Source: Mugil cephalus
Lineage: Eukaryota > Chordata > Actinopteri > Mugiliformes > Mugilidae
Direction: 5' to 3'
Length of the DNA stretch: 64,000 bases
NCBI RefSeq assembly: GCF_022458985.1
Contig: NC_061776.1
Span: 12,311,597-12,375,596 of the forward strand
Both the position numbers and the translations under genes were made by a program. The notes beneath the pieces were generated by a model. It saw only the letters and a program-made list of their open reading frames with translations, ran no database searches and was not told where the DNA came from. How positions within the stretch are numbered: position 1 is the stretch's first letter; every line of letters starts with the position of its first letter. This document shows, in pieces, positions 33,901-64,000 of this stretch.

Positions 33901-36401
33901 ACATTAACAGCAACTATAGTTGAAATGCACTCACCTTGAAGTACCTAATAACATATCTAATTTCCTTCTCCGTGTCCCTCAGTTTCTGCACGGACTTCAA
34001 AGAGGCTTCTTGAAGTTTTTTCTAAGAGAATAAAAGACATGAATATCACATGGAGCAGTCCCTCGTGCTGCTTTCCACGGATGGAAATGTTTGATTTCAC
34101 AATCAAAAGGACTGGATTACACAAGAAGGTCTTTGGTCCATCAGCTGCAGAGACATCAGAGCACCAGATAAGACTTCTGGAGGTACAAATTACTCTACCT
34201 GTGTTCAATATTTTAGCTGCTAAAGTCTTTACACCAGACTTGAAAAAGTATTACACCATATACCGTATACAAAATAAGGGGCAGGTATTATGTCTCTGCT
34301 CCGACTTCAAACACCCAACACAGAAAAAGGATGATGCCCATTAGTACTTGGGGGGGGGGTATTTTACAGTCACAAAGCTCAGTACAGTACAGTCTTATGG
34401 GAGGTATTAGCATTGGAGCTAGCATAGATTAGCACAAAACTAGGGAAGCGTTACTAGGCAACCGTCAGACACTGCAGGAAGTTACTATTCCGAGGCAAGA
34501 TAGGTTGTATCAACATTAGGACAAACAGTGAGCTATTCACTCATGTCCAGTTCTTTTGAGAATGGTGTTGGTCGTTAACAGAAAGCACGGACGCCTCACT
34601 TCATCCCTAAACGTTTGGTCAGGAAGGCCATCAAATGAAGCTTCCTCCTGCTATTGAACCTTTGCCCTAAATGAGATCGCTCTAAACCACAACTCTGTCT
34701 TTCATGTATATCATTTCCTTTGTGGTGTACATATTACCTGCGATGACACACACACAGTTATTTATCCATAACATGCTGCTCCTCTTCATAAGTCATTTAA
34801 AGGAAATTCCCCTCATTGGACACAACTAGAATATATTAAAAATATATTAATAAGATATGTTAACATTTTAAATCAAATAGTGGGAGTAGTAGGCGTCGTA
34901 CAAGGTGCAGTTTGGGTGCCTTTCTTAAGGGATTTTTTAGCCATGGATTTAGAGGGAATTCGTACCAGTGACCCCACAAGCCCAAGTACTTTTCTCTAAC
35001 TAGCAGATCATTGGTTTAATGTTGTGTCAACATCAAATCTCTAAGGCTGGGGTCTTCAATGTTTTTCAGGTCAAGGACCCCCAAACTGATGTTATATATG
35101 TTTTATACATTAAACTCGGCCTAGTGCTATTTATACAGACATTATTATCGTTTTGCACTTAATATTAAGCCATTCAAACATTATTTCTTTTACTTCAAAC
35201 ATGTGCAACAGTCGGCTGCTGACTGAAAGATAACATCTTCTGCCTCCATTTATCCCTTTACTAAAATATTTTGGATTCATGTCAGTGCGCATTTTAAGAA
35301 ATTTAAATTAACAGGGAAAATAATAAAAAGAAATATGAAAAATGTCTAATCAACCAAAAATGTTTTGACCCCCCCTGCAGTACCTCCGTGAACCCCCTGC
35401 AGGTCGCCGACCCCCTGTTGAAGACCTATGGGGTTATTTGCACTAATAGTTTCCATAGTTTTACATCCTAATCCTCTGGATTACTTACTTAGATTCTTCA
35501 AATTTCACTCAAAACCACAATTTATTCATCTAGTTCTTGGTTATTAGCAGCTATTTATCTGCTTTCACACGACTACCAACCATTAATAATAAACAGACAC
35601 GTGACATCTGAGTGCCCCTTTAAAGTCAAATCCTCAGCAGCATAAGCAACAGCAGCAGCAGTAGTAGTAGTAGTAGTAAAATAGTAAAAATCTACATGGA
35701 GTGCTCTCTATAAATTCCAGAGTCAGTGTGTTATCTAAGCCGCAGTCAATCAAACCATAAACACATTTGAAGTTCGTGAATGATTAAGTTCCCTGTAAAC
35801 AGTCCCCACCCACCTGTTGTCTGTCCCTCTCGTCCACCGCCGGGACCGTCTCGTGGCCCCGGTGTCTCTCTTTGACGCACTGCGAACACACACACTGCTG
35901 CTCGACGTGACAGTACAGGCGCAGCAGCTTGTCGTGCTGCGGGCACAGCTTCTCTCTCGGCTGCTCCGTGGGCGCGATCAGTTTGTGGGACTTGCCGTGG
36001 AAGCGCTGTTCGTGGGCTCTCAGGTGGCCCGCGCAGTAAGACTCCGAGCACGCGAGGCAGGACTTGACAGCCCTGCTTTTCCTCCCCGGGCAAACGCCGC
36101 ACCTCACGTCCTCCGGTTTGGCCAGGGGGGGACGGGCAGCATCGTGGAATCCGCTTCGCTGAAACTTCTCCACCACTTCCCCGAGAACCGTGTTCCTGCT
36201 CAGCAGAGGTCTCGGGTTGAACACCTGCCTGCACTGAGGGCAGCTGTACTGGCCTTTCTGCTTGGGCCTGTTCCAGTAGTCTTCAATGCAGTCCAGGCAG
36301 TAGCTGTGTCCGCAGGGGATCGTCACCGGGTCCCTCAACACGTCCAGGCACACCGAACAGCAGAACTGGTCCTGCTCTATGGAAATAGTCGCAGCTGCCA
36401 T
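30971..36401 (-). CDS. finTRIM-like E3 ubiquitin ligase (RING, B-boxes, coiled coil, PRY-SPRY)
   Basis: Seven exons join in phase: 36401-35814, 34021-33935, 33816-33583, 32766-32607, 32516-32481, 31650-31591 and 31503-30971, for 565 residues. The RING is C15/C18, C30/H32, C35/C38 and C54/C57, with the classic CLDVLRDPVTIPCGHSYC. A first B-box begins near C101/C104. The second reads CPQHDKLLRLYCHVEQQCVC...H near 153-183. Exon 3 is the 234-base coiled-coil exon usual in this family. The last exon is a PRY-SPRY with LDPNSANPFLWFSD, YPDHPDRFTSWAQVLC, CYWEVEWSG and LDFRGGTLSFYNV. RING TRIMs of this group are ubiquitin ligases, several of which modulate antiviral interferon signalling in fish. The substrate is unknown. 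The order is that of TRIM16/TRIM25-related finTRIMs; I did not assign an ftr number. Confidence 0.92.
32085..32125 (-). pseudogene. Possible decayed duplicate of the 36-base TRIM exon
   Basis: The + strand sequence gttttttcggtgttactcga resembles gttttttccgagttactcag inside the real exon at 32481-32516. Both are preceded, at 32012-32033 and 32389-32411, by a near-identical tggttacggttgctaagc / tagttacggttgctaagc block. This suggests an old local duplication of about 375 bp whose exon copy has decayed. The match is short. Confidence 0.3.
35046..35430. mobile_element. Short copy of the GGTCTTCAA-ended DNA element
   Basis: It begins GGGGTCTTCAATGTTTTTCA and ends CCCCCTGTTGAAGACCTATG, with the same interior as 1923-2592 but about 280 bases of the middle missing. 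It is a non-autonomous internal-deletion derivative in the first TRIM intron. Confidence 0.7.
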
Positions 36402-37406
36402 TTCCCTCCGTGAGTGAACTGAACAGGGAAGGAACAAAGATGGGCGTAGTTCACAGGTGCACTGATCACGGCTTCTCGGGTTTCAGCTGCTGCTCTCTGT
36501 GAAGCCTCCAATCACAGCCAAACACCGGCAAACAGGCCCGTCCCCGACGAACTGGGAAAACCCCCCCTGTCTCTGTGGAGCCTCCCACGGCCTCTCCACC
36601 TCACACCTAGACACTTCACTTCAGCGTTATCTGACACGCCGCTGTTTGTGTGTGCGAAGAAGTCAACCCTCTGCACCCAAAGCCCGTATTTTTTTCTCGA
36701 GTAGTGTGAGTTGTAAACAAACCCGGAGTGAACGCCACATGAGAAAATGAATTCTGTTTATTTAATGTCATCATGTAATTTGGCTACATTGTCCTTAAAG
36801 CATTAAATCATTTCAGTCACAGAGTTTTTTTGGTTAAAAATGAAAAATATGTATAAAAGAATAAAAACTAAAACTGTAATAAACTACGTGTTAACCTCTG
36901 TCCAAATACTGAAACGAGATGCAGTGTCTCAGTCCTACTTTTAGCTGCTTAATACTTAATAAAGTAACCGCGTGGTGCACGTGGCCTTCGGCGCCACTTT
37001 GCTCTTTTCGCTAGGATGCGAGGTTCAAGTAAATCTGACAGCAAAGCCGTGACGTGAATGAGGATAAAACATTAGAACTGTCCCACACACAGCGCAGATC
37101 TGTGAGAATAGTCAGATGTGATGGCACCCGCAGCCCGAAATGTTTGACGTCGTCTATTTCCTTCTGGCGTGAGCGCGTCGCTGGGGGTGTCTCTGTCTGG
37201 ATCCTGAAGACAGTTTGGACCCTGAGCAAGTAGAAGAGGGATTATTAGGATGCTCCTGTGCATTTAACATGGGTATCAGGGGTAAATTATTACAAATAAA
37301 ATGCACTTGAATAATGAATAATATACAGTGACGTTACGGTGATGGAAATATGACATTTCTGTTTTCTTCAGGCTGTTTTTACACATGGATGAAAAATATT
37401 TTTAAC

Positions 37407-42648: not shown

Positions 42649-45600
42649 CTTTCTCATAAATGCTGACAAATCCTTCCTGACAGACCTCCTGCAGCAGCCC
42701 CTTAAAATCTGACAGAGCTGTCATGACGGGGAGCACGGTGAGGCCGGGGTCAGAGGTGACTAGAGGCAAAGCCGGCAGCCCAGGTGGAGCGTGGAGAGAC
42801 TGACAGCTCTAAACACGGACAGCAAGGGTTAGGGGTGAAGTCTGGCCAAGTGTTAGAGAAAAATCTAAAAGACACGGAGGAGCCCGCGAGGCGTTACCTG
42901 AAGGAAAGAGACGGGGTCCTCTGTGTTGGAAACCTTGTCCAGTTCAGCCTCGCTCTTCTTCAGCTCGGCGATCTCCTTCTGGATCCTCTCCAGCAGCTGC
43001 TCGGCGTCGCTGACGGCCATCTTCTCCTGGGCCTTGATCAGCTCCCGCACCTCGAAGCGCTTCAACTCTATCGACCGGATCAGCTCAGAGAAGACGCTGT
43101 CGCTCTCCTCCGACGCTGCCCGAGCCGAGCGCTGGAGGGAGACACAAAGCAACGAACAGCAGACAGAGTGAGGATGATAATGGCTGTGGTTCAAAGGAGG
43201 TTCCCAGCCGTAATGCTAATAAAACGACATGTATTGAACTGTAACATGAGCGTGGCGGCGGGACAGTTTTATTAGTATGAGCACTTACGGTGAGAGAGAA
43301 AATGGCTTGTCTCAGCTCCTGCGCCTCCTTCTCTCTCTGCTGAGCCCTCATCTGGGAGCTGTGCTTCATGTCACCGAGCTGCATCTGAGGACAAATGTCG
43401 ACATGATGCAAAATGTCACTTTTACTGAGTGAAAGTAAAGGTTAAATCACTTTTAGGAGGAAGGTGGCTTACAGGTCTGGGTTTAAGGGGGAATCTTAAC
43501 TCCTGAATCATCAGTAAAGAAGAAGCAAAACCAAGTCGATGTCGCTCTTTCACACCAAACAGACCAGATCTAATGCAAACTATTGCATCTTATTATCATT
43601 CATGTGCATGTAAGACATATTCTTCCATCTCTATTTCGTGCACATTTTTTTTTTCCCATTTTGTTTGATTTTATTTTACGAGATTTTGTATTTATTTTTA
43701 CTTGTGTCTCTCACGAACGCAACTAAGCTACTGTATCCAAGCAACTTCCCTTGAGGATCATTTAAGTTCATCTAAGTCTAAACTAAAAGATCTGTTTGTG
43801 CTTTTACTCTCGTTATTCTGCCCAGACCACATCCGACCGACTGGTTCACACTTTCCAGACCTGGACTAGATAAATATGGAGGCATGAAATACTCTGGTTT
43901 TACCTTGTGGCAGAAGTTAAGAACCCACAAACAAATAAATATAATTTCATTGCTTGTCTAAATATTAGTCAAAAGTTCATTGTACTCAGATCAGTGCATA
44001 CTTTAAAGTATTTGTCAAAACAGGGATTTTCTTTACCTCCACCTAAAGAGCTTTATACCAGGGTCAAAGTTTCCTTTAAGAGCTGTGTGTGAGATTTGCA
44101 GTTGTTTACAACTTTGTTTCACTGTAAATCAAAGTGGTGCTTTTGGGAAAAGGTACAGATTTACATTAAAAGAAAAACACCGCAGTTATATTTGTCAGGA
44201 TTCCACTAGTTTCATTTATAAGATTACTGTTCTTAGACCAGAGAAACACGGAGACTCCAGAGACTGTTTGAAACTTTAAACTTAGGATACTTATCATTTC
44301 GTTTATATCAATCTACCCAGACAACGTGAGACCAGAGACTGTTTAAAACTTTAAACTTATAAAATCTGTAAGATGCTTGTCATTTCATTTATATTAATTT
44401 ACCCAAGATTTGATTAAACTGTAAACGGGACAAAGGTTGTTTTGTTCAACAGAAATCTAGATTAGATTTAATCAGGTCTAGATTGGACATTGGACCACTT
44501 ACACACACCAAGAACAGAAAATAAATTTGAATTTGTGAAAACGAGATGTGTGGAAAACTGTGAGGGGAAAGCACCAACAAAGATAAGGAGGAAAAATATG
44601 ACTAATCAACCGTCTTTCACCGTGCAGACCGTCACGTGTTTCTATACAGCATAACCTTTGAATATAAACAGGCTGACCAGATTAGAGTTTGTGAAAAAGA
44701 GGGTCCTACAACCGGGGACACACACAGAGAAACGCAACGCAAATTTGATCTAGTAGAACAAAATCCCAGAAGTGTGAAATCGTTTCAAAGTTTTAGTCTG
44801 ACAAATTTTAAAATCTCAAAAAGGGAACGCCTGGTCACCCTGATATAAACCGATCAGGCATAACAATATGACCACTAACGGGTGAAGTAAAAAACAGTGA
44901 CAATTTATTGTTCTGCTGGGTAACTAGACATGTACCACCCACTTAGACCAGACAGGACACACATGCAAAAATGGTTTAGGAACAACTCAGAAAAACACAA
45001 AAAACAGCACAAGGTGTTGACCTGGCCTCCAAATTCATTACATCCCAAACTAACTAAATAAGTTTCTGTGGGATGCACCGGATCCACAGAGACCCCTACC
45101 CTAAACCCATAGGACCAGAGGTCCACACTAATAACATCCAGGACACCCTCAGAAGACCCATGTCCATTCTCTGATGAGTGGTCATAATGTTACGCCTGAT
45201 CGGTGCAAACAGTACAGCATGAAACAAAACAACTACTTTAGTGTCAAATGTCTCGGTCTTGAGCCTCTCCGGTGATGCCTTACCTGTTTCTGTTGTATCT
45301 CTGCCTCCACCAGCACCGTGTCGTGTCCCTTGTGCTCATCCGTCAGACACAGGTAGCAGATGCAGCACTTGTCGGTGCGGCAGTACACCTCCAGCAGCTT
45401 GTCGTGTTGGGGACAAATTGTCTCCTGGAGTCGCTTGGAGGCCGACACCAGCTTGTGCTTCTTGAAGGCGGCGGACTCGTAGTGAGGCTGGACGTGTGCG
45501 TCGCAGTACGAGGCCAGACACACCAGGCAGGACTTGACAGCCTTGTTCTTGCTCCCGGTGCAGACGTCGCACTCCACGTCGTCGGCCTGCGCCAAGGAAG

Positions 45601-45883
45601 TCTGGGCGGGGGGCGCCGAGGCCTCGCTGAGCCTCGTCTTCCTGAATCTGTCCACCACATCGGCCAGCATGGTGTTTCTATTGAGCGCCGGCCTCGGGTT
45701 GAAGTTTTGTCGGCACTGCGGGCAGACGAAGACCCCGAGGTAGTCGTCCTGGTCCCAGTAGTTCTGGATGCATCTGGAGCAGTAGCTGTGTCCGCACGGG
45801 ATCGTCACGGGGTCCTTCAACACGTCCAGACATATGGAGCAGTTGAACTGGTCCTTGTCCAGGAGGACTCCGGCCTGAGCCAT
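42649..45883 (-). CDS. TRIM E3 ubiquitin ligase lacking a visible PRY-SPRY exon
   Basis: Four exons join in phase: 45883-45284 (200 codons), 43384-43289 (96 bases), 43131-42898 (234) and 42808-42649 (160, ending in phase 1). The first encodes a C3HC4 RING (CSICLDVLKDPVTIPCGHSYC...CPQCRQNFNPRP), a B-box 1-like CDVCTGSKNKAVKSCLVC and a B-box 2, CPQHDKLLEVYCRTDKCCIC...H. Exons 2-3 are coiled coil (SAEARAASEE-like start, ELIRSIELKRFEVRELI). Exon sizes 234 and 160 are the same as in the neighbouring TRIM gene, so the two are paralogues. Downstream to the next gene I find no PRY-SPRY sequence; a short tail exon near 39.1 kb is possible. Without SPRY it would keep ligase and self-association parts but lose the usual target-binding domain. 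Confidence 0.85.
43590..43760 (+). repeat. Dispersed repeat copy 1
   Basis: Shares atgcaactaagctactgt-type and ccaagcaacttcycttgwgg sequence, with similar flanks, with 60045-60190. It resembles a retroposon 3' end lying in the second TRIM gene's first intron region. Confidence 0.5.
44245..44405. repeat. Two-copy tandem repeat, unit about 77 bp
   Basis: The block agagactgtttgaaacttta...cattt(c/g)gtttatat...tacccaga occurs at about 44255 and again at about 44332 with few differences and a short insertion. Confidence 0.75.
44848..45207. mobile_element. Internally deleted Tc1-like element
   Basis: The ends are inverted repeats: ACCGATCAGGCATAACAATA(TGACCAC) on the left and the complement of GTGGTCATAATGTTACGCCTGATCGGT on the right. 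This terminal sequence belongs to a very common fish Tc1-like transposon. The interior keeps scraps such as aatttggaggccaggtcaac (complement strand) but no transposase frame. It is about 360 bases long and lies in TRIM intron 1. Confidence 0.8.
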
Positions 45884-46084
45884 CGTCGAAAAAAACACCC
45901 AAAGACGGTGGAAATAAGTGAAAACACAGGGACGTGGTCGACAGAGTCACAGCAGAGTGCTACTGCCGTTTGGTTTGTTTACAGGAAGTGACGGGGGAGG
46001 GGGTGTGGCTAAAGTGACATCACCGGAAACTGCAGGGGATTTAATTTTTAAAATACAGTTTCAAAATAATATACTTTAAATATT

Positions 46085-48598: not shown

Positions 48599-49891
48599 TC
48601 ACTTGTTCTTGTCCTCCAGGCCGCTCTCTGCTCTCAGGGCCTGGCTGCTGGCTGAAATAAAGCTGATCCAGTGTTTGAGGTCCTCCGGAAACTCCGGGCA
48701 CTCGATCTGCACGAAAACACAGCGTAAGCAGAATGCAGATGAAGAACAGAGCAACAGTCTCGAGAGGGAACAATTTCCTGGTGAGTTTTCTTGAACAAAG
48801 TTCAAAATATTCCCTGGTTCAAGCTTCTCCATTGTGTTGATCTCATGCTTTTATTTGTCTTAAGTACGGACACACCAAAATTACATCAGAGACTCACTGG
48901 TGATGAAGGCTGACTGTGCCAACAATGATGGCGCCATTCTAAATAATTGTGTCTTTGTAAAAGTATTTGTATATTCAAATGTTTACATTAGATAAAGATG
49001 TAAATGAGCAACCTTTGTGCACTTTCAGCTTCCTCATTCATCAAATGACTGAAAACCCAGTGACTGGGGTCCAACTAGTACCAGAGGTGTGGGACAGACC
49101 AGAAAAACTCACCGGCCGACCATCAGAATAATGTGTCATGGTCTTAATGAGATTAGAAATAAAATATTTTGAATGCATGTTAGACAAGATGATATTCAAA
49201 GGTGTCACCTTTGATTATGAGATATTTGAAAATCAGCTGTTTATTCATTTATTTTATCTACTTTAAGCAGACTATGAATTAATAGTAAATGAAATATTTT
49301 GTGTTTAAGTGATGTGAATCTAGAAATAAACTAATCGCAAAATTAATTTACAGATAAAGAAATTACCTGCCATGCAAATACTTTACACACCTTCTTTTTG
49401 CAGACAAACTCGATGATCATCTCCGGGCTGCAGCGCACCACATTCTGCTTACAGAGCAGGATCGCAGACACAAAGTCGTCTTTCTTGGACACAAAGCGCT
49501 GCTCCAGGTAAAAAGCCTTCTCATCCCAGCCTAGTACTTTGGTCCGAATCTCAAAAGCCTCACGGAAGGCCAGGGAGCGCCGGTACCGGATGGTGGAGGC
49601 CCCTACCACCATTTTGGCTCCCAGTTTGCGTGAGGCCATGAACAGCCCGTTTCTCATGTAATGGTGGAAGCGGGCAAAGTCACACTCCCTCAGATAGCGA
49701 GAGTTGTTCATGTGGCCCATGTAGTCCAAATCGTGGGGAAGAACCATGCCATCAATGCTCTGCTCAGCCAGAATGTCCCATATTCTGGGCTGGAACCAAG
49801 CTTGGACGAACACCTGGGCCCCACGTAGGAAGTACCATACATCCAGGCTACAGAAGAGCAGGAGGAGGGCACCTAGCACCAGCAGCAACAT
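48599..49891 (-). CDS. them6: THEM6-like hotdog-fold protein (copy A)
   Basis: Two coding exons, 49895-49391 (ATG 49891) and 48706-48599, give 202 residues (human THEM6 is 208). An N-terminal hydrophobic anchor ([20 protein letters not shown]) precedes a 4HBT/hotdog domain with [33 protein letters not shown] and [12 protein letters not shown]. The C-terminus is [24 protein letters not shown]6 is a thioesterase-superfamily protein associated with the ER membrane and lipid homeostasis; its substrate is not settled. The start is fixed by an acceptor (TTTCAG|AGAGATG) four bases upstream. An untranslated first exon ends at a donor at 50430. A close paralogue lies at 58.1-58.8 kb with the same exon phases and intron position. 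Confidence 0.93.
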
Positions 49892-50430
49892 CTCTCTGAA
49901 ACATCAGTCCAAATTACACAGCATTAATCTGATGCGTTTAGAAATAATTCATTTACAGCATTCTGCATGCAAGTGTAAAGGTCTACAGCAATTTCCCATG
50001 AAACGATGACTTAAAAAGACAGTGACTGTTTTCTAAATGAACGGCTCCCATTAATGTTTAACAAAATGCATTTTGACCTCATCAATGTCAACACAGCTGT
50101 GTGCAGGAAAACGAGAGATCGGTGCATCTTTAATTCCCTGACTCATTATGGTTGCTAAAAAACAAACAAACACGACAGCTGTTTTATTTTCATAAACAGC
50201 GGCTTCAACCTTGAGAGGACCAGGAAGCTAATGCTGCTGTGTTCAAGTAGACGCTGTGACAGCCAAATCTGTTAGCTTAGCCGCTAGCTGCCAGTAGCCG
50301 GTGGCCTCGGTGCAAAACCGACCGCACTCTCACGCGTAAAGTCGTTACTCTTTTAGCTTTCCTGCGCCAAAATTCAACCTACAGCAATACATATCCCGTT
50401 AGAGTATTTCTGACAACTGCAAAACTCACT

Positions 50431-52655: not shown

Positions 52656-55600
52656 TCAAGTTCTTCGGAAAATGTTGAGTAGTCGCTTCTTCAGAGATTT
52701 CTTCTTTACTTTTTTTGGTGCCTCCTCAACCTGCTGTTCCAGATGTCTGTCCATTGATGCCTCTCTGGAGTTTTCCCCCTCCTCCACCGTTTTCTCGAGG
52801 GCCTCGGTCACGGATTGTAAATGTTGCTGGAGGTCGGCCCTTTCCTGGTCCCACTGTCTTTTTTGGTTTTCCAGGTCCTCCTGCGTCTTGGTTGCTGCAG
52901 CCGTCATAGTTGCTGTAATCACTATGTTCTCAGAAAGGTAGTGGAGTTTCTCCTCCTCCCACTGACGCTGTTGCTCGTCCATCTGAGTCCGCATTAGAGT
53001 CAGTGCAGCTTTAGCTTTAGCGGTCTCCTCTGCTTGTTGTTGAAGACAGGCCTCGGCTTCCTTCCTTTTTTGCTCTTCTGACTGGAGAGCCTCTTGTAGC
53101 TGTTTACCCTTCAGGAAGACATTTCCATGCATCTCTGTCTTCTTGCTGAGCTCCTGATGAAGAAGAGCCATCTCTTCTTTTGCCTCTTTTCCTTGGGCTG
53201 TGAGCTGTTCTTTCAGTTGCTCCAACTCTTTTCTTAGAGCAGCCTTTTCTTTCTCCAAGGAGGAGATCTTGTCTGTCCCTTCACCCAGAATTCTTTGAAA
53301 CTCCATCTCCGAGATCTGAAGTAAGGTGTCGTTCTTGATCCCAGTGCTGGTGAGTTCAGGCTTGACAGCAGGCTGTGGTTTCTCAGTTGTGTTTCCACGC
53401 AGCATTTGGAGAATTGGATGTACTTTAGTTGCTGCAGGCTGCTGTGTGGGCTCCAAAGGTTGCACTTTGATCCTTGTGGTGGTCTGTGCAGGGTTTGGTG
53501 CAGCAGGTACGTTGAGAGCAGTGACGGGCATTTCTGGAGCTGCACATTGGAGCATGGTAGATGGCTCCACTTCAAGTGTTGTCTCAGCCCGTTTCTTTGG
53601 TGTGGATTGCTGTAATTTAGGTATCCAATCCCTCGGTTTTGGTCCTGGTTGGACTTTAGGTCTTGTGTCCATCCTATCTGTCCGTCTGGAAGGTTGGTCT
53701 TGATGTCTTGTCTCCATCCTGTTTGGCTGTGTGGAACGTTGGACTTTAGACCTCGTGTCCATCCTGTATGGCCCTGTTGAAGGCCTCATGGCAGCCTGTG
53801 GAAGGGTGTCTCCAGCTGCCAACCCAGAAGTTGGCGGAGGTGCTGTGGGTGCTGCTACAGGAATCTCTGAAGATGCACCATGTACAGCAGGAGCTGCAGC
53901 AGGTACTCGTGGACATGCAGCAGGCACTTCTGGAGACGCGACAGGCACTTCTGGAGATGTGGCGGACACATCTGGAAATGCTGCAGGCATTTCTGTAGAT
54001 GCAGCAGGCACTTCTGGAAATGCTGCAGTCACCTCTGGAGATGTGGCAGGCACATCTGGAAATGCCGCAGGCATTTCTGGAGATGCGGCAGGCACTTCTG
54101 GAAATGCAGTAGCCATATCTGGAGATATGGCAAGCACTTCTGGAAATGCGGCAGGCACCTCTGGAGATGTGGCAGGCACATCTGGAAATGCGGCAGGCAT
54201 TTCAGTAGCTGGCTCACGTACTGTGGGAGCGGCGACAGGAATCCCTGGAGCTGCATCAGATACTGTGAGGCTGTGGCTGGTACTTCAGTTGCTGTACCAA
54301 GGTACTTCGGCGACTGTGGGGGACAGTGTAGGCGAGTGTGGCAAGTGATGCAGTTTGGTTGCCTGCGCGTTGGTATCCCAAGTTTTTAACTGCCATCTTG
54401 TCCTTCTTCTGTTTACGGGGTCCCCTCAGGTTAGCGGCCTTGGAGTTCTTCTGTGACTCCTGGAGTTGAGTCGGCTCAGTCTGGAGAGCTGGAAAGTCTT
54501 CATTGTTGAGCTGGATGTTGATGTTCTGCTCAACCTCCTCCTGGAAGTTAGAAGTGATTTTCCTGGAGTCCGCTGGCTGAGACTTCTCCTGGTTTTCCTC
54601 TGCAGACGTCATGGCAGACTTCTTTGGAATGTAGACTTGGTGCCTAAAGTCACGCAGGGTAACTTTAAAGGTCTGTGAACCTTGTAACGTTGTAGCACTG
54701 TTACAGTGCGACACATTCTGGAGATGCGGCAGGCACTTCTGGAAATGCGCAGGCATATCTGGAGATGCGGCAGCACTTCTGGAAATGCGGCATTGGCACG
54801 CAGCCTCTGGAGAATGCTAGCCGGAAGCACATCCCTGGAGATGTGGCAGGCACATCTGGAAATGCGGCAGGCATTTCTGGAGATGCGGCAGGCATTTCTG
54901 GAGATGCGGCAGGCACTTCTGGAAATGCAGTAGCCATATCTGGAGATATGGCAAGCACTTCTGGAAATGCGGCTGGCACCCCTGGAGATGTGGCAGGCAC
55001 ATCTGGAAATGCGGCAGGCATTTCTGGAGATGCGGCAGACACTTCTAGAAATGCAGCAGCCATATCTGGAGATATGGCAAGCACTTCTGGAAATGCGGCA
55101 GGCACCTCTGGAGATGTGGCAAGCACATCTGGAAATGCGGCAGGCATTTCAGTAGCTGGCTCACGTACTGTGGGAGCTGCGACAGGAATCCCTGGAGCTG
55201 CATCAGATACTGTGATAGCTGTGGCTGGTACTTCAGTTGCTGTACCAGGTACTTCGGCGGCTGTGGGGGACAGTGTAGGCGAGGTGGCAAGTGATGCAAG
55301 TTTGGTTGCCTGCGCGTAGGTCTTTTTAACTGCCATCTTGTCCTTCTTCTGTTTTTGCGGTCCCCTCAGGTTAGCGGCCTTGGAGTTCTTCTGTGACTCC
55401 TGGGGTTGAGTCGGCTCGGTCTGGAGAGCTGGAAAGTCTTCATTGTTGAGCTGGATGCTGATGTTCTGCTCAACCTCCTCCTGGAAGTTAACAGTGATTT
55501 TCCTGGAGTCCGTTGGCTGAGACTTCTCCTGGTTTTCCTCTGCAGACGTCATGGCAGACTTCGTTGGAATGTAGACTTGGTGCCTAAAGTCACGCAGGGT

Positions 55601-56383
55601 AACTTTAAAGGTTCTGTGAACCTTGTAGCGGTTTGTAGCACTGGTCTCTGGAGATGTGGCAGGCACATCTGGAAATGCGGCAGGCATTTCTGGAGATGCG
55701 GCAGACACTTCTGGAAATGCAGTAGCCATATCTGGAGATATGGCAAGCACTTCTGGAAATGCAGCAGGCACCTCTGGAGATGTGGCAGGCACATCTGGAA
55801 ATGCCGCAGGCATTTCTGGAGATGCGGCAGACATTTCTGGAAATGCAGCAGCCATATCTGGAGATATGGGAAGCACTTCTGGAAATGCAGCAGGCACCCC
55901 TGGAGATGTGGCAGGCACATCTGGAAATGCGGCAGGCATTTCTGGAGATGCGGCAGGCACATCTGGAAATGCGGCAGGCATTTCAGTAGCTGGCTCACGT
56001 ACTGTGGGAGCTGCGACAGGAATCCCTGGAGCTGCATCAGATACTGTGAGAGCTGTGACTGGTACCTCAGTTGCTGTACCAGGTACTTCGGCGGCTGTGG
56101 GGGACAGTGTAGGCGAGTTGGCAAGTGATGCAAGTTTGGTTGCCTGCGCGTAGGTCATTTTAACTGCCATCTTGTCCTTCTGTTTTCGCGGTCCCCTCAG
56201 GTTAGCGGCCTTGGAGTTCTTCTGTGACTCCTGGGGTTGAGTCGGCTCGGTCTGGAGAGCTGGAAAGTCTTCATTGTTGAGCTGGATGCTGATGTTCTGC
56301 TCAACCTCCTCCTGGAAGTTAGAAGTGATTTTCCTGGAGTCCGCTGGCTGAGACTTCTCCTGGTTTTCCTCTGCAGACGTCAT
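52656..56383 (-). CDS. Orphan modular gene: FPAL-motif modules, proline-rich heptad arrays, coiled coil (frame-disrupted)
   Basis: I do not recognise this protein. From ATG 56383 the frame stays open for 560 codons to 54701. It contains two copies of a module (MTSAEENQEKSQ, then EEVEQN, NNEDFPALQTEP, NLRGP, YAQATKLASLA, GIPVAAPTVREPATE), each followed by about 15 seven-residue units (MPAAFPD/VPATSPE type). A third module starts at 54612 but is broken by small insertions and deletions. Its array then runs in frame into a C-terminal region (from 54200 to the stop at 52656) with basic RMDTR repeats, a long coiled coil (EKEKAALRKELEQLKEQLT ...) and the basic end KKVKKKSLKKRLLNIFRRT. There are no introns in the visible coding part. 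Apart from the frameshifts the whole reads as one chain of about 1,240 residues. The N-E-D-F-P-A-L motif resembles FPAL peptides in some RNA-binding proteins, which is only suggestive. A nearby TATA box supports transcription. Confidence 0.7.
53890..54205 (-). repeat. 21-bp coding minisatellite, array 3
   Basis: About 14 units of 21 bases encode heptads such as MPAAFPD, VPATSPE, VPAAFPE, VLAISPD and MATAFPE. Later units become irregular (VPVASPE, VPAACPR) before the unique C-terminal part. Confidence 0.9.
54256..54830 (-). pseudogene. Frame-disrupted third module of the orphan gene
   Basis: The frame entering from array 2 is lost at about 54770-54830 in irregular sequence (ggcattggcacgcagcctct). 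The module restarts at 54612 but loses frame again near 54360-54390, where an extra tatcccaa-like insertion and a missing A differ from module 2. It ends at a stop at 54256. The next array is in frame with the C-terminus. Either the gene is broken or the repeats were mis-assembled. Confidence 0.6.
54815..55150 (-). repeat. 21-bp coding minisatellite, array 2
   Basis: About 15 units encode MPAAFPD, VLATSPE, VPAAFPE, VLAISPD, MAAAFLE, VSAASPE and so on. Units alternate F-P and S-P types, and six units (126 bases) form a higher-order repeat. Confidence 0.9.
55650..55988 (-). repeat. 21-bp coding minisatellite, array 1
   Basis: Sixteen heptad units follow PTVREPATE and end in VPATSPE before the linker to module 2. 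The six-unit order MPAAFPD, VPATSP-, VPAAFPE, VL-ISPD, MA-AFPE, -SAASPE repeats. Confidence 0.92.
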
Positions 56384-56481
56384 GGCAGACTTCTTTGGAA
56401 TGTAGACTTGGTGCCTAAAGTTACGCAGGGTAACTTTAAAGGTTCTGTGAACCTTGTAGCTGTTGTAGCACTGGTCTCCAT
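56380..56481 (-). promoter_or_regulatory. Upstream ORF overlapping the orphan gene start (ATGA)
   Basis: An ATG at 56481 opens a 33-codon frame (METSATTATRF...FQRSLP) whose TGA stop overlaps the main ATG at 56383 as ATGA. This layout can couple termination to re-initiation. Modules 2 and 3 carry the equivalent leader sequence inside the gene, where it is read in the main frame as coding linker (YKVHRTFKVTLRDFRHQVYI). Confidence 0.45.
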
Positions 56482-56621
56482 TTCAAATCGAATAGCGTTT
56501 ACTGTTCGAATCTCTGACTGTTGCTGTGTTGAATATGAAGTAATCTTCACGTTCGCTCGCTGTGTGTCTTCTGGTAGGTTTACCGATCAATAACTCACGT
56601 GTGGCTTTTAGGAGCTGATCC

Positions 56622-58139: not shown

Positions 58140-58843
58140 TCATTTGCTCTTCTCCTCTAGACCACTCTCGGCTCTGAGGGCCTGGCTGCTGGCGGAGATG
58201 AAGCTGACCCAGTGTTGAAGGTCCTCTGGAAACTCAGGGCACTCCACCTGCAGAGAGCAAACCACAATCTCAGCATTTGCATTCAGTTCACCTAATCTAC
58301 AATTTGCGCCCGCGCTGAAACTCCTCTGTCCGTCCTCACCTTCCTTTTACACAGGTGCTGCATGATCTTGTCCGGGCTGCTGCGTATGACGCTCTGCTTG
58401 CAGTACATGACAGCACACACCAGCCCGTCTTTAGCCGACACAAATCTCTGCTCCAGGTAAAAGGCTTTGTCATCCCAGGTGACGATCCGACTCCGCAGCT
58501 CATAACTCTCTCCTATATACAGAGGCCTGCGGTAACGAATGGTGGTGGCCCCAACGACCATCGTGGCTCTGAGGGCCCGCGTCGCTTTGAACACACCGTT
58601 GCGCGTGTAGAGGGAGAAGCGGGCGAAGTCGCACTCACGCAGGTAACGAGCATTGTTCATGTGGCACATGTCGATGTCGCGCGACGTCACCCGGCCTGTG
58701 ATGACCTGCTCCGCCGTGATGTCCCGGATCGGGGGCTGAAACCAGGCCCGCAGGACGACCACGGGCGCCCGCAGGAAGTACCACACATCCAGAAAGCAGA
58801 AGAGAGCCAGCAAGATGGCGAGGACCCACAGCAGCCACCACAT
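58140..58843 (-). CDS. THEM6-like hotdog-fold protein (copy B)
   Basis: Two coding exons, 58847-58340 (ATG 58843) and 58247-58140, give 203 residues. An N-terminal membrane anchor ([20 protein letters not shown]) is followed by a 4HBT/hotdog domain with [30 protein letters not shown] and [12 protein letters not shown]. The C-terminal exon ([20 protein letters not shown]) is nearly the same as copy A. Relative to A, the conserved D-x-D-Y-M-G-H-M-N-N stretch is one residue shorter (DIDMCHMNN), so copy B may differ at the acyl-thioester site. The start is chosen because the acceptor (CTCCTCAG|AGAGATG) lies just upstream; the longer MCLLLREM start is therefore intronic. An untranslated exon ends at a donor at 60325. 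Confidence 0.92.
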
Positions 58844-58849
58844 CTCTCT

Positions 58850-60324
58850 GAGGAGAAGACACACGACAGAAGCAGAGGTGTTGACAGATCTGTGATGTCA
58901 CGGAAGGTAAAGATAACTTCAAGGAATCCTAGAAAAAACAAATGAACTAATTCAGCTAAGAGGTACCACTCATGTAGCCAAAGATTAGGGTCTAACTACA
59001 TTTAATGTGACAAACAACATAATTTTAGTTCAGGGACCACATACAGACCAACTTTGACCAATAGTGCAAAGAAGTACTAATAAAAATGTTTGCATTTAAT
59101 GAGCTAATCCTTTAACAAAACATTTTATGTTTTGGGGATTCACATATTTATGTATTTTTTTGTACCCACTAAGTGTTTCTATACTTCACGCTTTGAATAC
59201 TAATTATATTTTTTCCATCACCAATCTCCTGTGTATCATGCATCACTATCATTATCATGTTTATATGGTACATATATGAATTAATCGGCTGCTCTCTTCT
59301 TCTACTTTTTTCAGTCTCTAATGTCCTCAAGTAGAACCAAACACATTGCGTATTAACCTAAATGCTCCTGGACCTTAATTAAAACGCAAACTGAACTGCA
59401 GTAAATCTAAAAAAACAAAAACTCTTAAAATGTTTCACCACCAACCAAGCAGCTTCGTCTGTGCTAAGTCACAGGTGAGGAATCAGTGGTTTTTATTAGG
59501 ATCCTCTGTGGGTGCTGCTCACATGAAACTCTGCTAACTGGGGTCTGTTAATGACCAGATACTAGAGGATGTTGTCCTCACTAAAGCACAACAACAATAA
59601 TAATAATAAAAAAGATAAGTGCATAAAAAAATCCTTTATAAAAGTGTCCATTTAACATCTTTAATGTGTGGTGTTCTCACTTGTGCCAGACTGAGTTTCA
59701 GTGTTCCCACTTCTAAACTGGTTTTACAAAACGTGACAACAGTGTAAACTGGTTTTGCAGGAAAGACAGACGACTCCTGCACAAACCTCCAGGATGAAGT
59801 AAACCGTCTTCTGCACTCGCATAGTTTAGAGGAAATTCAGATATTTTACACAGACTTTAACTGTTTTACACTTGTTGTAGAACAACATGGTGTTGCAATC
59901 AAAGTTACAATTAATCTGAGATCACTGCTACGAGCACAGCATAGTGAGTTATTAGAAAGGCTGCAGAACTAGTGGGTTATAAATCACAACATGTAGTCAG
60001 TGATACAATCTGAGAGAAGTTCTGTTACTGTCGTTCACTTTATTTTGCACCTTTTTTTTGCAAATTTATTCATAATGACGGAAGTGAATATCTTGCTTGC
60101 ACCATACTTTTATTTTATTTTTACTTGTGTTTTGTTATATGCAACTAAGCTACTGTGACCAAGCAACTTCTCTTGTGGATCATGAGAGACTTAAGACTAA
60201 AATGCTGTGATTTTAAAGGTAGTGTTGTTACCTTTCACATTTGCAGGAGACTAAAAACATTTCTCCGTAGCTTCCGCTACGACTTAACTTCGTAATATAA
60301 ACTTTTAGGTAGTTTAACACTTAC
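58850..60324 (-). other. 5' UTR intron of THEM6-like B
   Basis: Lies between donor GCAGTAG|GTAAGT at 60325 and the acceptor at 58848. It holds a dispersed repeat at 60045-60190 and nothing else recognisable. Confidence 0.5.
60045..60190 (+). repeat. Dispersed repeat copy 2
   Basis: Same family as 43590-43760: atgcaactaagctactgtga, then ccaagcaacttctcttgtgg and atcat. Confidence 0.5.
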
Positions 60325-60499: not shown

Positions 60500-61448
60500 A
60501 GCGTAAACAATCCACATCGCACGTTTTTACCATTTAAGCAGTCGTACATGCCGCAAAGACGGAATTAGGTCGATACCACGCATTATTTGTATTTGTCAAT
60601 ATTTAATTTGAAGGTAACAGTAGTTCACTTCCGGTCACCGATATGTGACGCAACGCAGAGTCGATGATTGGTTGTTGAGTCTCTAAACTAAACTTAACGC
60701 TTTTTATTTTAGTCGTTTACAAAATATATTGAAGCTGAAGCTACAAAATACATATGGAGTTAAATAGCACATTCACTGCTTTAATTTGTAATAAAAATAT
60801 TTTTTTTATTTCTCTACCTAAATGTTATTCAGACAGTTTATCTCATATTTTTATATTAGCCAGCTCTCCAATAATTCAACCGAATGAACTCAGATGTCTT
60901 TATCTAAAGGTTTAAAAGTAGAAAAATTACAACCACTATCCACTACTACACTTCCTTCCATCTGTCAAAATTCATCTATAAATAGACATGAAAATACACA
61001 CAAGAACTCAATCATTGTTCACACTTTATTCTGTTTATTACAAGCAAGAAAACTGTCAGTAAACCTTCATTCAGAACTGGACGGTAGTGAAATTGGAAAA
61101 TATATATAACAATGTATATTTACCAATAATAAAGGAAAACTTAAAAGCACCCGCACACGTCTTACATTATGTTTATCACTACGCTCCTTAAGTCACTTTA
61201 TTTTTAATAAACATTAAGCATTATATCACGTAATAAATGATAACTATAAAATAAAATGTCATGAACGCTGAACAAACAAACTCACCCAAAACTCCTTAAA
61301 CAGACGTCCAGACATTAGTGTTGAAGCACTGACAACTTACAATAACTTTTGTTTTGCGAGTCCCAAACACAACTCAAACTAGCATTCATGTGTCTCGTAC
61401 AACTCTAGAAAGTGCGTATCTAACGAGTCCTCTAACGAACGCACAGAT
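60500..61448. other. Intergenic interval and probable 3' UTR
   Basis: No exon seen. TTTATT at about 61197 (AATAAA on the minus strand) could end the E2/U-box transcript. Confidence 0.4.
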
Positions 61449-63940
61449 TCACTGAATTTGCCGAGACCGATGATCCTTCACCATTTTCTTCATGTCCCAG
61501 TCTGCAACGAAGTCGCTCATTTCTAGCTCGTGTCCTGGGCCGGCCAGTGGATCGTAGCGGTGTCTGCACGAGAGAATGTGGTTTACAAAAACCGTACTTG
61601 CTCATGAAAATAAAAGTTTCCTTTACATGCAGGCTGTGGATAAACTTTAAATTAGTGTCTCACTCACTGTTTGAGGTGCTCCTCAATGGCCTTGCGTTCG
61701 TACACGCTGCCATACACAGTTTTCACAGGATCAACAAACATCTTCTTGGTGAGAGGACAGATCAGATGCTGGGGTATAAACTGCAGCACATGTTCCACCA
61801 GTTTCTACAGAAAATACACACACGATTATGTAAAAAAAACAAAAAAAAAACATTATAAGACAAAACATAATCCATCAAGATTTTGTAAATACACCGGCTC
61901 ATTCACCCTCTCCATCTCGTCCAGTGACTTTCCAGCATGTTCTTCTGTGTGTTTCTTGGCTTCCCATTCATAAATCTCACGGCTCGTCAGGAACTCTTCG
62001 GCTAAAATGCTTCAAGAAAAAAGAGAAATATTCAAGACACTTCACGACAATGTCACCTAATTTCCCTTCGGGTATGAATATACTAAGTGAATGGGGGGTC
62101 ATTCACCGGGGTCAGATGCTGTTTGTGGTCCTAGTTTTGGTGGTGGTGCATCCTTTTTTCAACGTGCTCATGTAGAGTTAATAAAATCAGTCTGTGGCTT
62201 AAAGTAGCTCCATAACCTCTCAACTAACTGCAGCTCTTCTGGTTTCCCCTTTTGAATGACAAATACAGGCTACTGCCACCTGCTGGTACGAAGAATTATT
62301 TCCATTCACAAAGGTGCAGAGCTTCCACTGATCAGGCATAACATTATGACCACCTCGCTAATATTGTGTAGGTCTCCCCTGTGCCTCCAAAACAGTTGTG
62401 AGCCATCAGAGAGTGGGCATGGGCCTCCTGAGTGGGTCCTGTGGTGTCCTGTGGGGGCCTTTGGTTCCTATGGGTTAAACCGTTCGTGTGTTCAACACTA
62501 TATACATAGATTTGTGTTTAAAACGGAAAAACTAAAAGACAGGAACCAAGAGCGCCGGCCATGAAGAATAAAATAAAAACTGTTGTATGTGACTGTGGGT
62601 TTCATTCGGCCTTCCTTGGAAAAGAAATACAAAAGAATTTGATCTGTTCCTGAACTTGGCGACATCGCAACAGGTCGACACATTTCCATCGCTCTGAGAA
62701 CACGTAGGTAGCGTTTACCTGTCCAGTGGATCGTCAGGCTCGGGGATGATGAGCAGTCCGTACACAGCATCAAAGACGTCTCTCATGGTGATGTGGGCGT
62801 TGTAGCTGCGGGTGAATATGCTGTGACAGATGCGGCCCACGCTATTGACGTTGCAGTGATACACCTGACAGTCCTGTTAAGAAATATTAGCTACCAAAAT
62901 GTGTGCAATACATCTATCTACGTCTATTTTAGAAGGATACTCGTGTGACAAAGCGGACGAGCGGAGGCTTCACTGGGTATTCTGCACCAAACTGGCAGTA
63001 CAGCTCAAACACTCCTTTTGCATACGGTGTGTCCGGAGGGCCTTGCATGAGGATCCTCCAGAACGCTGAAAAGATTATGTTGTGCTTTCATTTTTCTATC
63101 ATTTCCAGAGTTTCATCACCCATAAACCTGCACCTCAGAGAAAAGACAGATGATGTAGATCTACGACAGGTGGAGCAGATCATGTAAAACATGTGCACAA
63201 AAATAATACAGACGCAGGCCACGAGAGGCCACATCACTTACTGAAGTCTGACTCGGATGGAAAGACTCTGAAGAAGGGATGTGGGTCACAGTGGAGACTC
63301 TTGAGCTCCTCCAGGATACGTTTGTCCTTCTCCATTAAATCCCTGACCTTTGACTCACGGATCCTCTTCTTCAGGGCACTGTTTTGAAAAAGATTTAGGC
63401 TTTAAAGGTTATTACATGTCAAATAAATTAAAACTGTTTATACCAGGCTCTTAATTAACAGGACATTAATGTTTTTCTGTGTTTTGTATGAGCATGTAAT
63501 CTAAATATGTGATCCTCAGCTCCAATAGTCCTTTCAAATTACACTGACATTTTATCAAATATATTACTGCTGTAAACACTCCTACAATTAAGTATTTGGC
63601 TCATTTTGACAATAATATTTTAATTCACACAGTCTTGGACACTCACCTCTCTGTCATGGTCACTTTGCTGTTTATTTGAGTTGGCAAAGACGTTTCTGGA
63701 GACTCATCATATCCACGATCAGCAAACATGCCTGTTAACACGGACTACAAAAAACACCAGGAATAAGAATTATGAACACATGAAGTCAACGAGCAGTTTA
63801 GAGGAAACTGTAACTCACTTCACTGATGGTGGACGGGTCGAGTTTTTTCTTGGGTTTCCTCTGCGCCAAAGACAGAACTGTCTCGATCTCAAAGAGCCTC
63901 AGACCGTCTTTGGTCGTCTGGGGTTTGAAGCAGCAGCCGC
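61449..63940 (-). CDS. E2 (UBC) - U-box fusion protein, 3' part
   Basis: Eight exons join in phase: 63940-63819, 63744-63647, 63378-63242, 63065-62941, 62873-62719, 62009-61907, 61804-61668 and 61563-61449, for about 330 residues. The 5' end lies beyond the window. A charged linker (LAQRKPKKKLDPS; KKRIRESKVRDLMEKDKRIL) precedes a UBC fold: FWRILMQGPPDTPYAKGVFE, EYPVKPPLVRFVTR, HCNVNSVGRIC with the catalytic-position Cys near 62828, then PEPDDPLDSILAEEF. The HPN motif is HCN here. It is followed at once by a U-box: LICPLTKKMFVDPVKTVYGS, VYERKAIEEHL, DPLAGPGHELEMSDFVADW, MKKMV. UBC folds carry ubiquitin as a thioester and U-boxes bind E2s as E3 modules, so one chain may supply both steps. I do not recognise a named gene with this order. 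Confidence 0.88.
62331..62490 (+). mobile_element. Tc1-like terminal fragment
   Basis: Begins tgatcaggcataacattatg(accacc) and goes on with taatattgtgtaggtctccc, the left end of the same fish Tc1-like family as 44848-45207. It is truncated, with no right end, and lies inside an intron of the E2/U-box gene. Confidence 0.75.
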
Positions 63941-64000
63941 CTGCAAGCAGCGAGGAAAGACATGTTTGTCAGCTATAATAAATATCAACACACAAGTCCA

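Follow-up and report, generated by a model that had tools for sequence, protein, structure and literature searches.

A predicted gene of Mugil cephalus, present in two copies, joins an E2 domain to a U-box in a single multidomain chain

Ubiquitin-conjugating enzymes (E2) and ubiquitin ligases (E3) are normally separate proteins, and an E2 and its RING or U-box E3 meet only transiently. UBE2O and BIRC6 are known examples of hybrid E2/E3 enzymes, and we know of no U-box or RING in either chain. Here we describe a gene of Mugil cephalus in which a UBC (E2) domain and a U-box (E3) domain sit in one predicted chain, making it an E2/E3 hybrid at the level of sequence. The last eight of its 24 exons, i.e. 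its 3' third, occupy positions 63940-61449 on the minus strand of a 64,000-nucleotide stretch of DNA (C7:12311597-12375596, hereafter the window; the genome comprises 634.8 Mb in 24 contigs). By analogy with UBE2O and BIRC6, the product would be a large multidomain chain whose UBC acts on its own targets, whereas the recognisable E3 domain that follows the E2 sets it apart from both.

Other multidomain arrangements have been mentioned on the E2 side, among them BRUCE-like E2s and a fungal PARP-E2 fusion (PMC2964712). On the E3 side, the main text of Marin 2010 (PMC3087547) counts seven main U-box genes in animals (UBE4A, UBE4B, UIP5, PRP19, CHIP, CYC4 and WDSUB1), with Act1 and six lineage-specific genes beyond them, and reports a gene with VWA and U-box domains, Mb_UBOXa, from Monosiga, Naegleria and others that is stated to be absent from animals; the word UBC does not occur in that main text. 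The fish protein resembles Mb_UBOXa in having a VWA domain and a U-box in one protein, a likeness of domain content only, and may bear on the statement that such genes are absent from animals. VWA is also listed among the domains co-occurring with U-boxes in a survey of Chlamydomonas (PMC4378952). An engineered fusion of UbcH5B with RING3 of MIB1 (PDB 8v0d) likewise joins an E2 to a RING-type domain with the E2 first (matched range 5-147 of 237); it is man-made whereas the fish fusion is natural, and its existence indicates that an E2-then-RING chain is feasible. No description of a natural animal E2-U-box fusion was found among the titles and abstract openings listed by searches of the Creative Commons-licensed literature, an absence of little weight. 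As far as that literature reaches, a distinct E2 followed by a distinct U-box in a chain with SAM, ubiquitin-like (UBL) and VWA domains is an undescribed variant, and databases are likely to carry the fish gene already as an unnamed protein.

Within the window, all eight exons have GT-AG borders and compatible phases, the joined UBC and U-box exons contain no in-frame stop, and the frame closes with a TGA at 61451-61449. A preliminary description of this stretch had proposed eight in-phase exons forming one chain, and this structure holds. Spliced as first proposed, the exons yield a 329-residue product in which both domains named there exceed their Pfam cut-offs: UQ_con (PF00179) scores 109 bits (E 1.9e-31, cut-off 27) and U-box (PF04564) scores 43.1 bits (E 4.7e-11, cut-off 21.4). 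All of the following features are on the minus strand, and the evidence for several of them includes the corresponding exon of a paralogue on contig C14. Exon 17 (63819..63940) encodes the region after the VWA domain (GGCCFKPQTTKDGLRLFEIETVLSL...) and was placed by its GT-AG borders, its phase and C14 exon 17, and exon 18 (63647..63744), the VWA-E2 linker, by its splice borders and C14 exon 18. The E2 begins in exon 19 (63242..63378; Pfam UQ_con and C14 exon 19) with helix 1, MEKDKRILEELKSL, and continues in exon 20 (62941..63065; UQ_con, a gapless alignment with human UBE2D2 and C14 exon 20) with the beta-sheet and the YPVKPP loop, where the UBE2D2 F62 position is V. Exon 21 (62719..62864) holds the catalytic part, with HCN, the catalytic-position Cys of GRIC and PEPDDPL, its acceptor matching that of the paralogue and its alignment with UBE2D2 being free of the earlier gap, and exon 22 (61907..62009; splice borders and C14 exon 22) encodes the C-terminal helix of the E2 and the linker toward the U-box. 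The first part of the U-box, LICPLTKKMFVDPV...YERKAIEEHL, lies in exon 23 (61668..61804; Pfam U-box and the CHIP and LubX structures), and its end (DPLAGPG...) in exon 24 (61449..61563; C14 exon 24) together with the TGA stop codon. The stretch at 63941..64000 is the 3' end of the intron preceding exon 17, by the gene model and comparison with C14, and possible poly(A) signals, ATTAAA then AATAAA, lie ~240 nt past the stop (61197..61208) by pattern only. The motifs quoted in the preliminary description are all present, including HCN replacing HPN and the catalytic-position Cys (GRIC), while its estimate of ~35 residues between E2 and U-box comes down to 23 by Pfam limits (971 to 995 in the C14 copy).

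The exon borders in the window were fixed before the C14 paralogue was known, and the final model retains them for seven of the eight exons; the start of exon 21 was moved from 62873 to 62864. Two AG acceptors 9 nt apart, at these two positions, precede VYHCN in the C7 copy. The C14 acceptor aligns by eye with the downstream one, and a start at 62864 drops a three-residue insert, DCQ, after which the E2 aligns with UBE2D2 end to end without a gap. Because the paralogue acceptor matches and the UBE2D2 alignment becomes gapless, 62864 is the more likely start, and an E2 with the DCQ insert as the main form was rejected on the same grounds; the upstream acceptor may be in minor use. With the corrected border, UQ_con scores 113.7 bits in the C7 copy and 123.9 bits in the C14 copy (cut-off 27), and U-box 41.9 and 51.5 bits (cut-off 21.4). 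The best solved-structure match of the E2 scored 94.4 bits with the 62873 splicing in a single-sequence search and 110 bits with the 62864 splicing in a two-sequence profile search, a comparison in which method and splicing both differ.

The C14 locus (C14:4582787-4597264) has the same 24 exons in the same order on a different contig, with an uninterrupted frame that codes for 1,072 residues. Intron phases agree between the two copies except at a break in C7 exon 8, and small indels or the end of the gene account for length differences in five exons. The predicted proteins are 66.6% identical over 1,053 aligned codons, with identities of 61-80% per domain and 54.5% in a short linker. The ratio of nonsynonymous to synonymous divergence (dN/dS, Nei-Gojobori) is 0.179 overall, 0.088 in the UBC, 0.111 in the U-box, 0.165 in the VWA and 0.373 in the short linker; these ratios are rough, dS being ~1.3 overall, near saturation, and 2.9, saturated, in the U-box. 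Both catalytic halves look to be under constraint, and the profile scores and dN/dS led us to reject chance similarity. It could be argued that the UBC exons come from one gene and the U-box exons from its neighbour, and that they are only seemingly joined, the joining having been read from sequence. We consider this extremely improbable, given joined exons that run without an in-frame stop and a second locus, on another contig, with the same exon order and joinable phases, and it was rejected on the latter ground. Given that the C14 locus repeats the exon order, stays open over 1,072 residues and shows low dN/dS against C7, it is also very unlikely that the two sets of exons occur in separate transcripts. 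With profile cut-offs passed, phases that join and an identical exon order in the paralogue, the direct E2-U-box fusion originally claimed is well supported at the level of sequence, and so is its reading as a conserved fusion gene.

In genome-wide searches, the gene appears at these two loci only. When the E2 and U-box served as query, all 44 candidates were scored and 37 matches reached E<=1, with adjoining exon series at C7 and C14 only; the weaker matches elsewhere hit the E2 portion of the query and presumably stem from other E2 genes. For a query of residues 1-835 of the C14 protein, all 33 candidates were scored, and the 35 matches with E<=0.1 all fall at the C7 and C14 loci. The U-box profile produced at least 70 matches (150 of 256 candidates scored), many of them in long open frames that were taken as RING/TRIM genes. 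In viral contigs scanned with the C14 E2-U-box stretch, five stretches matched a pattern and none was a relative. As a separate observation, two CHIP-like loci, on C16 and C20, have a common 20-residue U-box text, and CHIP seems to be duplicated in this fish.

The preliminary description had anticipated the N-terminus and further domains to the right of the eight exons, and SAM-like, UBL and VWA domains are located there. Exons 1-16 span C7:12375700-12382998, outside the window (window-equivalent 64104-71402), and the 24-exon model of both genes was built from this sequence and from comparison with C14. The first automatic gene models had 42 and 69 exons, many of them small and spurious, and raised penalties brought these to 25 and 29; leftover spurious exons were then dropped, several borders were set by hand from the paralogue comparison, and one of two equally good solutions was adopted at the exon 10/11 junction. 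The predicted protein of ~1,060 residues comprises, in order, a SAM-like domain, two ubiquitin-like stretches, a middle part of unassigned fold, VWA, UBC and U-box. In the C14 copy, Pfam places ubiquitin at 194-254 (29.4 bits, cut-off 25.4), VWA_2 at 584-698 (43.2 bits, cut-off 27), VWA at 584-752 (36.2 bits, cut-off 23.8), UQ_con at 835-971 and U-box at 995-1065, with SAM_TNK at 5-53 just below its cut-off (24.0 bits against 25) and zf-Nse across the U-box region also below (21.3 bits, cut-off 27). UQ_con, U-box, VWA and VWA_2 exceed their cut-offs in both copies, and ubiquitin does so in C14. At E<=1, Pfam found no WD40, TPR or RING, i.e. none of such accessory domains of the seven canonical animal U-box genes, the only extras being the sub-cut-off SAM, zf-Nse and one Nup49_C; NCBIfam returned just two weak VWA-type matches, far under their cut-offs.

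Among solved structures, the best sensible match of the VWA part is the proteasome subunit Rpn10 (E 0.0014). The second of the two matches of the VWA profile at E<=0.01, a designed ankyrin repeat protein, was discarded as spurious repeats. The residues of the VWA metal-site motif (DTSSS, then a later Thr, and LTDGND) can be recognised by eye. The ubiquitin-like region finds ISG15 as its best match, which is weak (E 0.03). This match of one ubiquitin-like stretch and an interferon-type motif upstream are what the gene has in common with ISG15; in contrast to ISG15, the ubiquitin-like domains are internal and have no free C-terminus, so they would not themselves be conjugated.

The sequence-level basis for a mechanism consists of the gene structure, the domain order, paralogue conservation, purifying selection, the catalytic-position residues and motifs upstream of the gene. 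The reading we prefer, to which we would give an even chance, is that of an interferon-responsive E2/E3 hybrid, a 24-exon gene encoding a SAM-UBL-VWA-UBC-U-box chain that carries out tethered ubiquitin transfer. Interferon signalling would raise expression through interferon-stimulated response elements (ISREs) ahead of the gene, the SAM domain would cluster the protein, and the VWA and ubiquitin-like parts would choose partners or substrates. The ubiquitin-activating enzyme (E1) would charge the UBC cysteine with ubiquitin, the residues for this being present, and the tethered U-box, from that same chain or one next to it in the cluster, would hold the charged UBC and help ubiquitin onto the bound target; tethering would offset a weakened E2/U-box interface. 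No E1 domain is found among the Pfam matches of the full-length protein, which would therefore still need an E1.

What weighs against this reading concerns the outlying domains, the E2/U-box interface, exon 8 of the C7 copy and the upstream motifs; the fusion and the proposed activity are predicted from DNA sequence. The SAM match is below its Pfam cut-off in both copies (19.8 bits in C7), as is the ubiquitin match in C7 (18.0 bits), and the first ubiquitin-like stretch (~96-170, C14 numbering) was recognised by eye, Pfam giving no match for it in either copy. Outside the window, each copy guided the exact placing of exon borders in the other, which in part accounts for their agreement; the conserved blocks in that region come from a translated search.

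The UBC core aligns without gaps to human UBE2D2, of the UBE2D/Ubc4-5 class, with 57 of 144 residues identical in each copy. When 29 UBE2D2 positions were mapped onto both copies, 12 proved to be kept in both (K4, R5, P61, K63, Y74, H75, N77, C85, I88, D117, P118 and L119), including the Cys at the Cys85 position; HPN reads HCN in both, with His and Asn kept. The fish protein differs from UBE2D2 in its long multidomain chain and at 15 of the 29 positions in both copies (K8E, R15C, S22R/V, F62V, P76C, L86H, D87S/N, R90T/D, Q92S/N, W93Y, S94N, P95A, A96H/Q, L97I and L104D), with two further changes in one copy each (D59E in C7, D116Q in C14). In UBE2D, L104 serves the closed state. The U-box, which exceeds its Pfam cut-off and has CHIP/STUB1 and Legionella LubX among its solved-structure matches, keeps H260 and P269 of the CHIP pocket, has Leu for I235 and Leu or Phe for V270, and places V264 in a gap; it departs from CHIP in being fused to an E2, in having no TPR by Pfam, in a K for F237 and in the loss of the basic linchpin, the R272 equivalent being G in C7 and E in C14. 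In the UbcH5a-CHIP pair, P61, F62, P95 and A96 of the E2 contact I235, H260, V264, P269 and V270 of CHIP, and S94 and R272 make polar contacts (PMC2396629). The same source reports that Met at F62 of UbcH5a is not tolerated with CHIP and that Ubc13, which carries Met in the F62 place, functions with CHIP all the same and is little affected when this residue is mutated (PMC2396629), so a loop without Phe need not be dead. The cationic linchpin is described as positioning donor ubiquitin in RING E3s and as mattering in U-box E3s as well (PMC12326332).

Taken at the residue level, active-site chemistry looks possible, and the usual docking and closed-state contacts are, as far as these alignments indicate, weakened similarly in both paralogues. 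One alternative, possible though not probable in our estimate, is that the UBC is an active E2 and the U-box has ceased to activate it, the protein being a hybrid of the UBE2O/BIRC6 type in which VWA, SAM and UBL choose the substrate and the U-box serves dimerisation or partner binding. The linchpin changed to G or E, the altered E2 docking loops and L104 in both copies, and a UBC that keeps its catalytic Cys, Asn77 and Asp117 and is the most conserved part of the protein would all fit such an arrangement, but the U-box is under constraint as well (dN/dS 0.111, at the saturated dS of 2.9) and keeps the E2-pocket equivalents of CHIP I235 (as Leu), H260 and P269. These same pocket residues would suit the converse alternative, in which the U-box recruits an ordinary separate E2 of the UBE2D class and the fused UBC, lacking the F62 and SPA docking residues and with HCN for HPN, is a non-catalytic platform that binds ubiquitin or an E2. 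This we think quite unlikely, as a platform would not need the cysteine, which is kept with Asn77 and Asp117 in both paralogues, and the UBC has the lowest dN/dS among the parts measured. That tethering replaces affinity is the reading we prefer. The suggestion in the preliminary description of a self-contained ubiquitin-transfer enzyme is borne out in part: it is possible in view of the retained Cys, Asn77 and Asp117, and it is called into question by the changed docking residues, L104 and linchpin Arg and by the protein's lack of an E1 domain by Pfam.

Exon 8 of the C7 copy (C7:12379982-12380123, outside the window) has a broken frame, with 16 nt where C14 has 21, flanked by conserved stretches on both sides. 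By eye, the break site is a perfect inverted repeat whose arms are 10 bases long, with C and G homopolymer runs, and the break may stem from misassembly, reflect a polymorphism or be a real loss. The domains encoded in the window are unaffected by it. The break, together with ubiquitin, SAM and U-box scores that are lower in C7 than in C14, would be expected if the C7 copy were a decaying pseudogene and the C14 paralogue alone worked. We regard this as unlikely, since each of the remaining 23 C7 exons has an open frame and splice sites that could be used, the two copies show a low dN/dS (a measure blind to which lineage is constrained) and the run in exon 8 could have arisen in assembly. Both ends of exon 8 are in phase 0 in C14, so a transcript that skips it would stay in frame.

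The case for interferon responsiveness rests on the sequence ahead of the two start codons. A strict ISRE, GAAANNGAAACY, occurs as a pair at -448 and -433 from the ATG of the C7 copy and once at -174 in C14. These three are three of the four strict matches in 114,000 bases scanned, of which ~2.6 kb are counted twice where the C7 sequence overlaps the window. In an order-2 simulation of each 500-bp upstream stretch the corresponding P values are 5e-5 and 0.010, and genome-wide the strict form occurs 7,940 times in 634.8 Mb, or ~0.006 per 500 bp. In both copies the elements sit just ahead of a likely non-coding first exon that precedes the start codon and ends, by eye, in CAAG/GTAAGAT, the transcription start being placed by inference. 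Within 3.5 kb upstream, a loose ISRE form occurs twice and once against ~0.4 expected in each copy, the gamma-activated sequence (GAS) twice and not at all against 1.3 and 1.2 expected, and no NF-kB motif is found upstream of either copy. Against these figures, the strict ISRE is no commoner genome-wide than its reversed control (7,940 versus 9,097), the test is post hoc, four motifs having been scanned first and the strict form ending in Y defined afterwards, and a narrower long form, AGTTTCNNTTTC, has no match in the upstream stretches of either copy. The fourth strict ISRE-like match lies inside the C14 gene, in its third intron (C14:4595494 region, +1770 relative to the ATG). Interferon induction of the gene is plausible from these motifs. 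The main text of a salmon interferon transcriptome study lists the fish genes vig-2 and CsMig1 and does not contain the terms 'U-box' or 'ubiquitin-conjugating' (PMC4337061). A further-reaching proposal, more doubtful than credible at present and offered tentatively, is that this one-chain, SAM-clustered ubiquitin machine, equipped with ubiquitin-like domains of its own and a VWA that reads the target, may be an interferon-induced antiviral effector in fish whose E2 and U-box have co-evolved off their usual docking and closed-state contacts, with tethering replacing affinity and a geometry of transfer unlike that of separate E2/E3 pairs.

The remainder of the window contains several other predicted coding stretches on the minus strand. 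Long open frames at 52656-54284 and 54701-56482, of 542 and 593 aa, consist of proline/alanine-rich repeats of the PAAFPDVPATSPEVP type; the former ends in a stretch that resembles a coiled coil by eye and has no Pfam match, and the latter has one sub-cut-off Pfam match. They are flanked by two 4HBT_2 thioesterase frames (49343-49903 and 58292-58897), which we take to be THEM6-like and one of which adjoins the E2-U-box gene. TRIM-type pieces occur in 30971-36482 and 42865-45946: they comprise PRY/SPRY at 30971-31531, a coiled coil at 33520-33867 and RING plus B-box at 35784-36482 and 45233-45946, and a second coiled-coil-like frame was noted by eye at 42865-43215.

A natural tethered E2/E3 pair would provide a direct test of the shares of affinity and activation in E2/E3 specificity. 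The similar changes in the two paralogues (F62V, SPA to NA(H/Q) and L104D in the E2; G or E at the linchpin of the U-box) suggest that the usual rules may relax when the two domains are fused. The gene would add an animal U-box gene beyond the seven main ones in the account of Marin 2010 (PMC3087547) and, if the ISREs work, would be an interferon-responsive ubiquitin effector.

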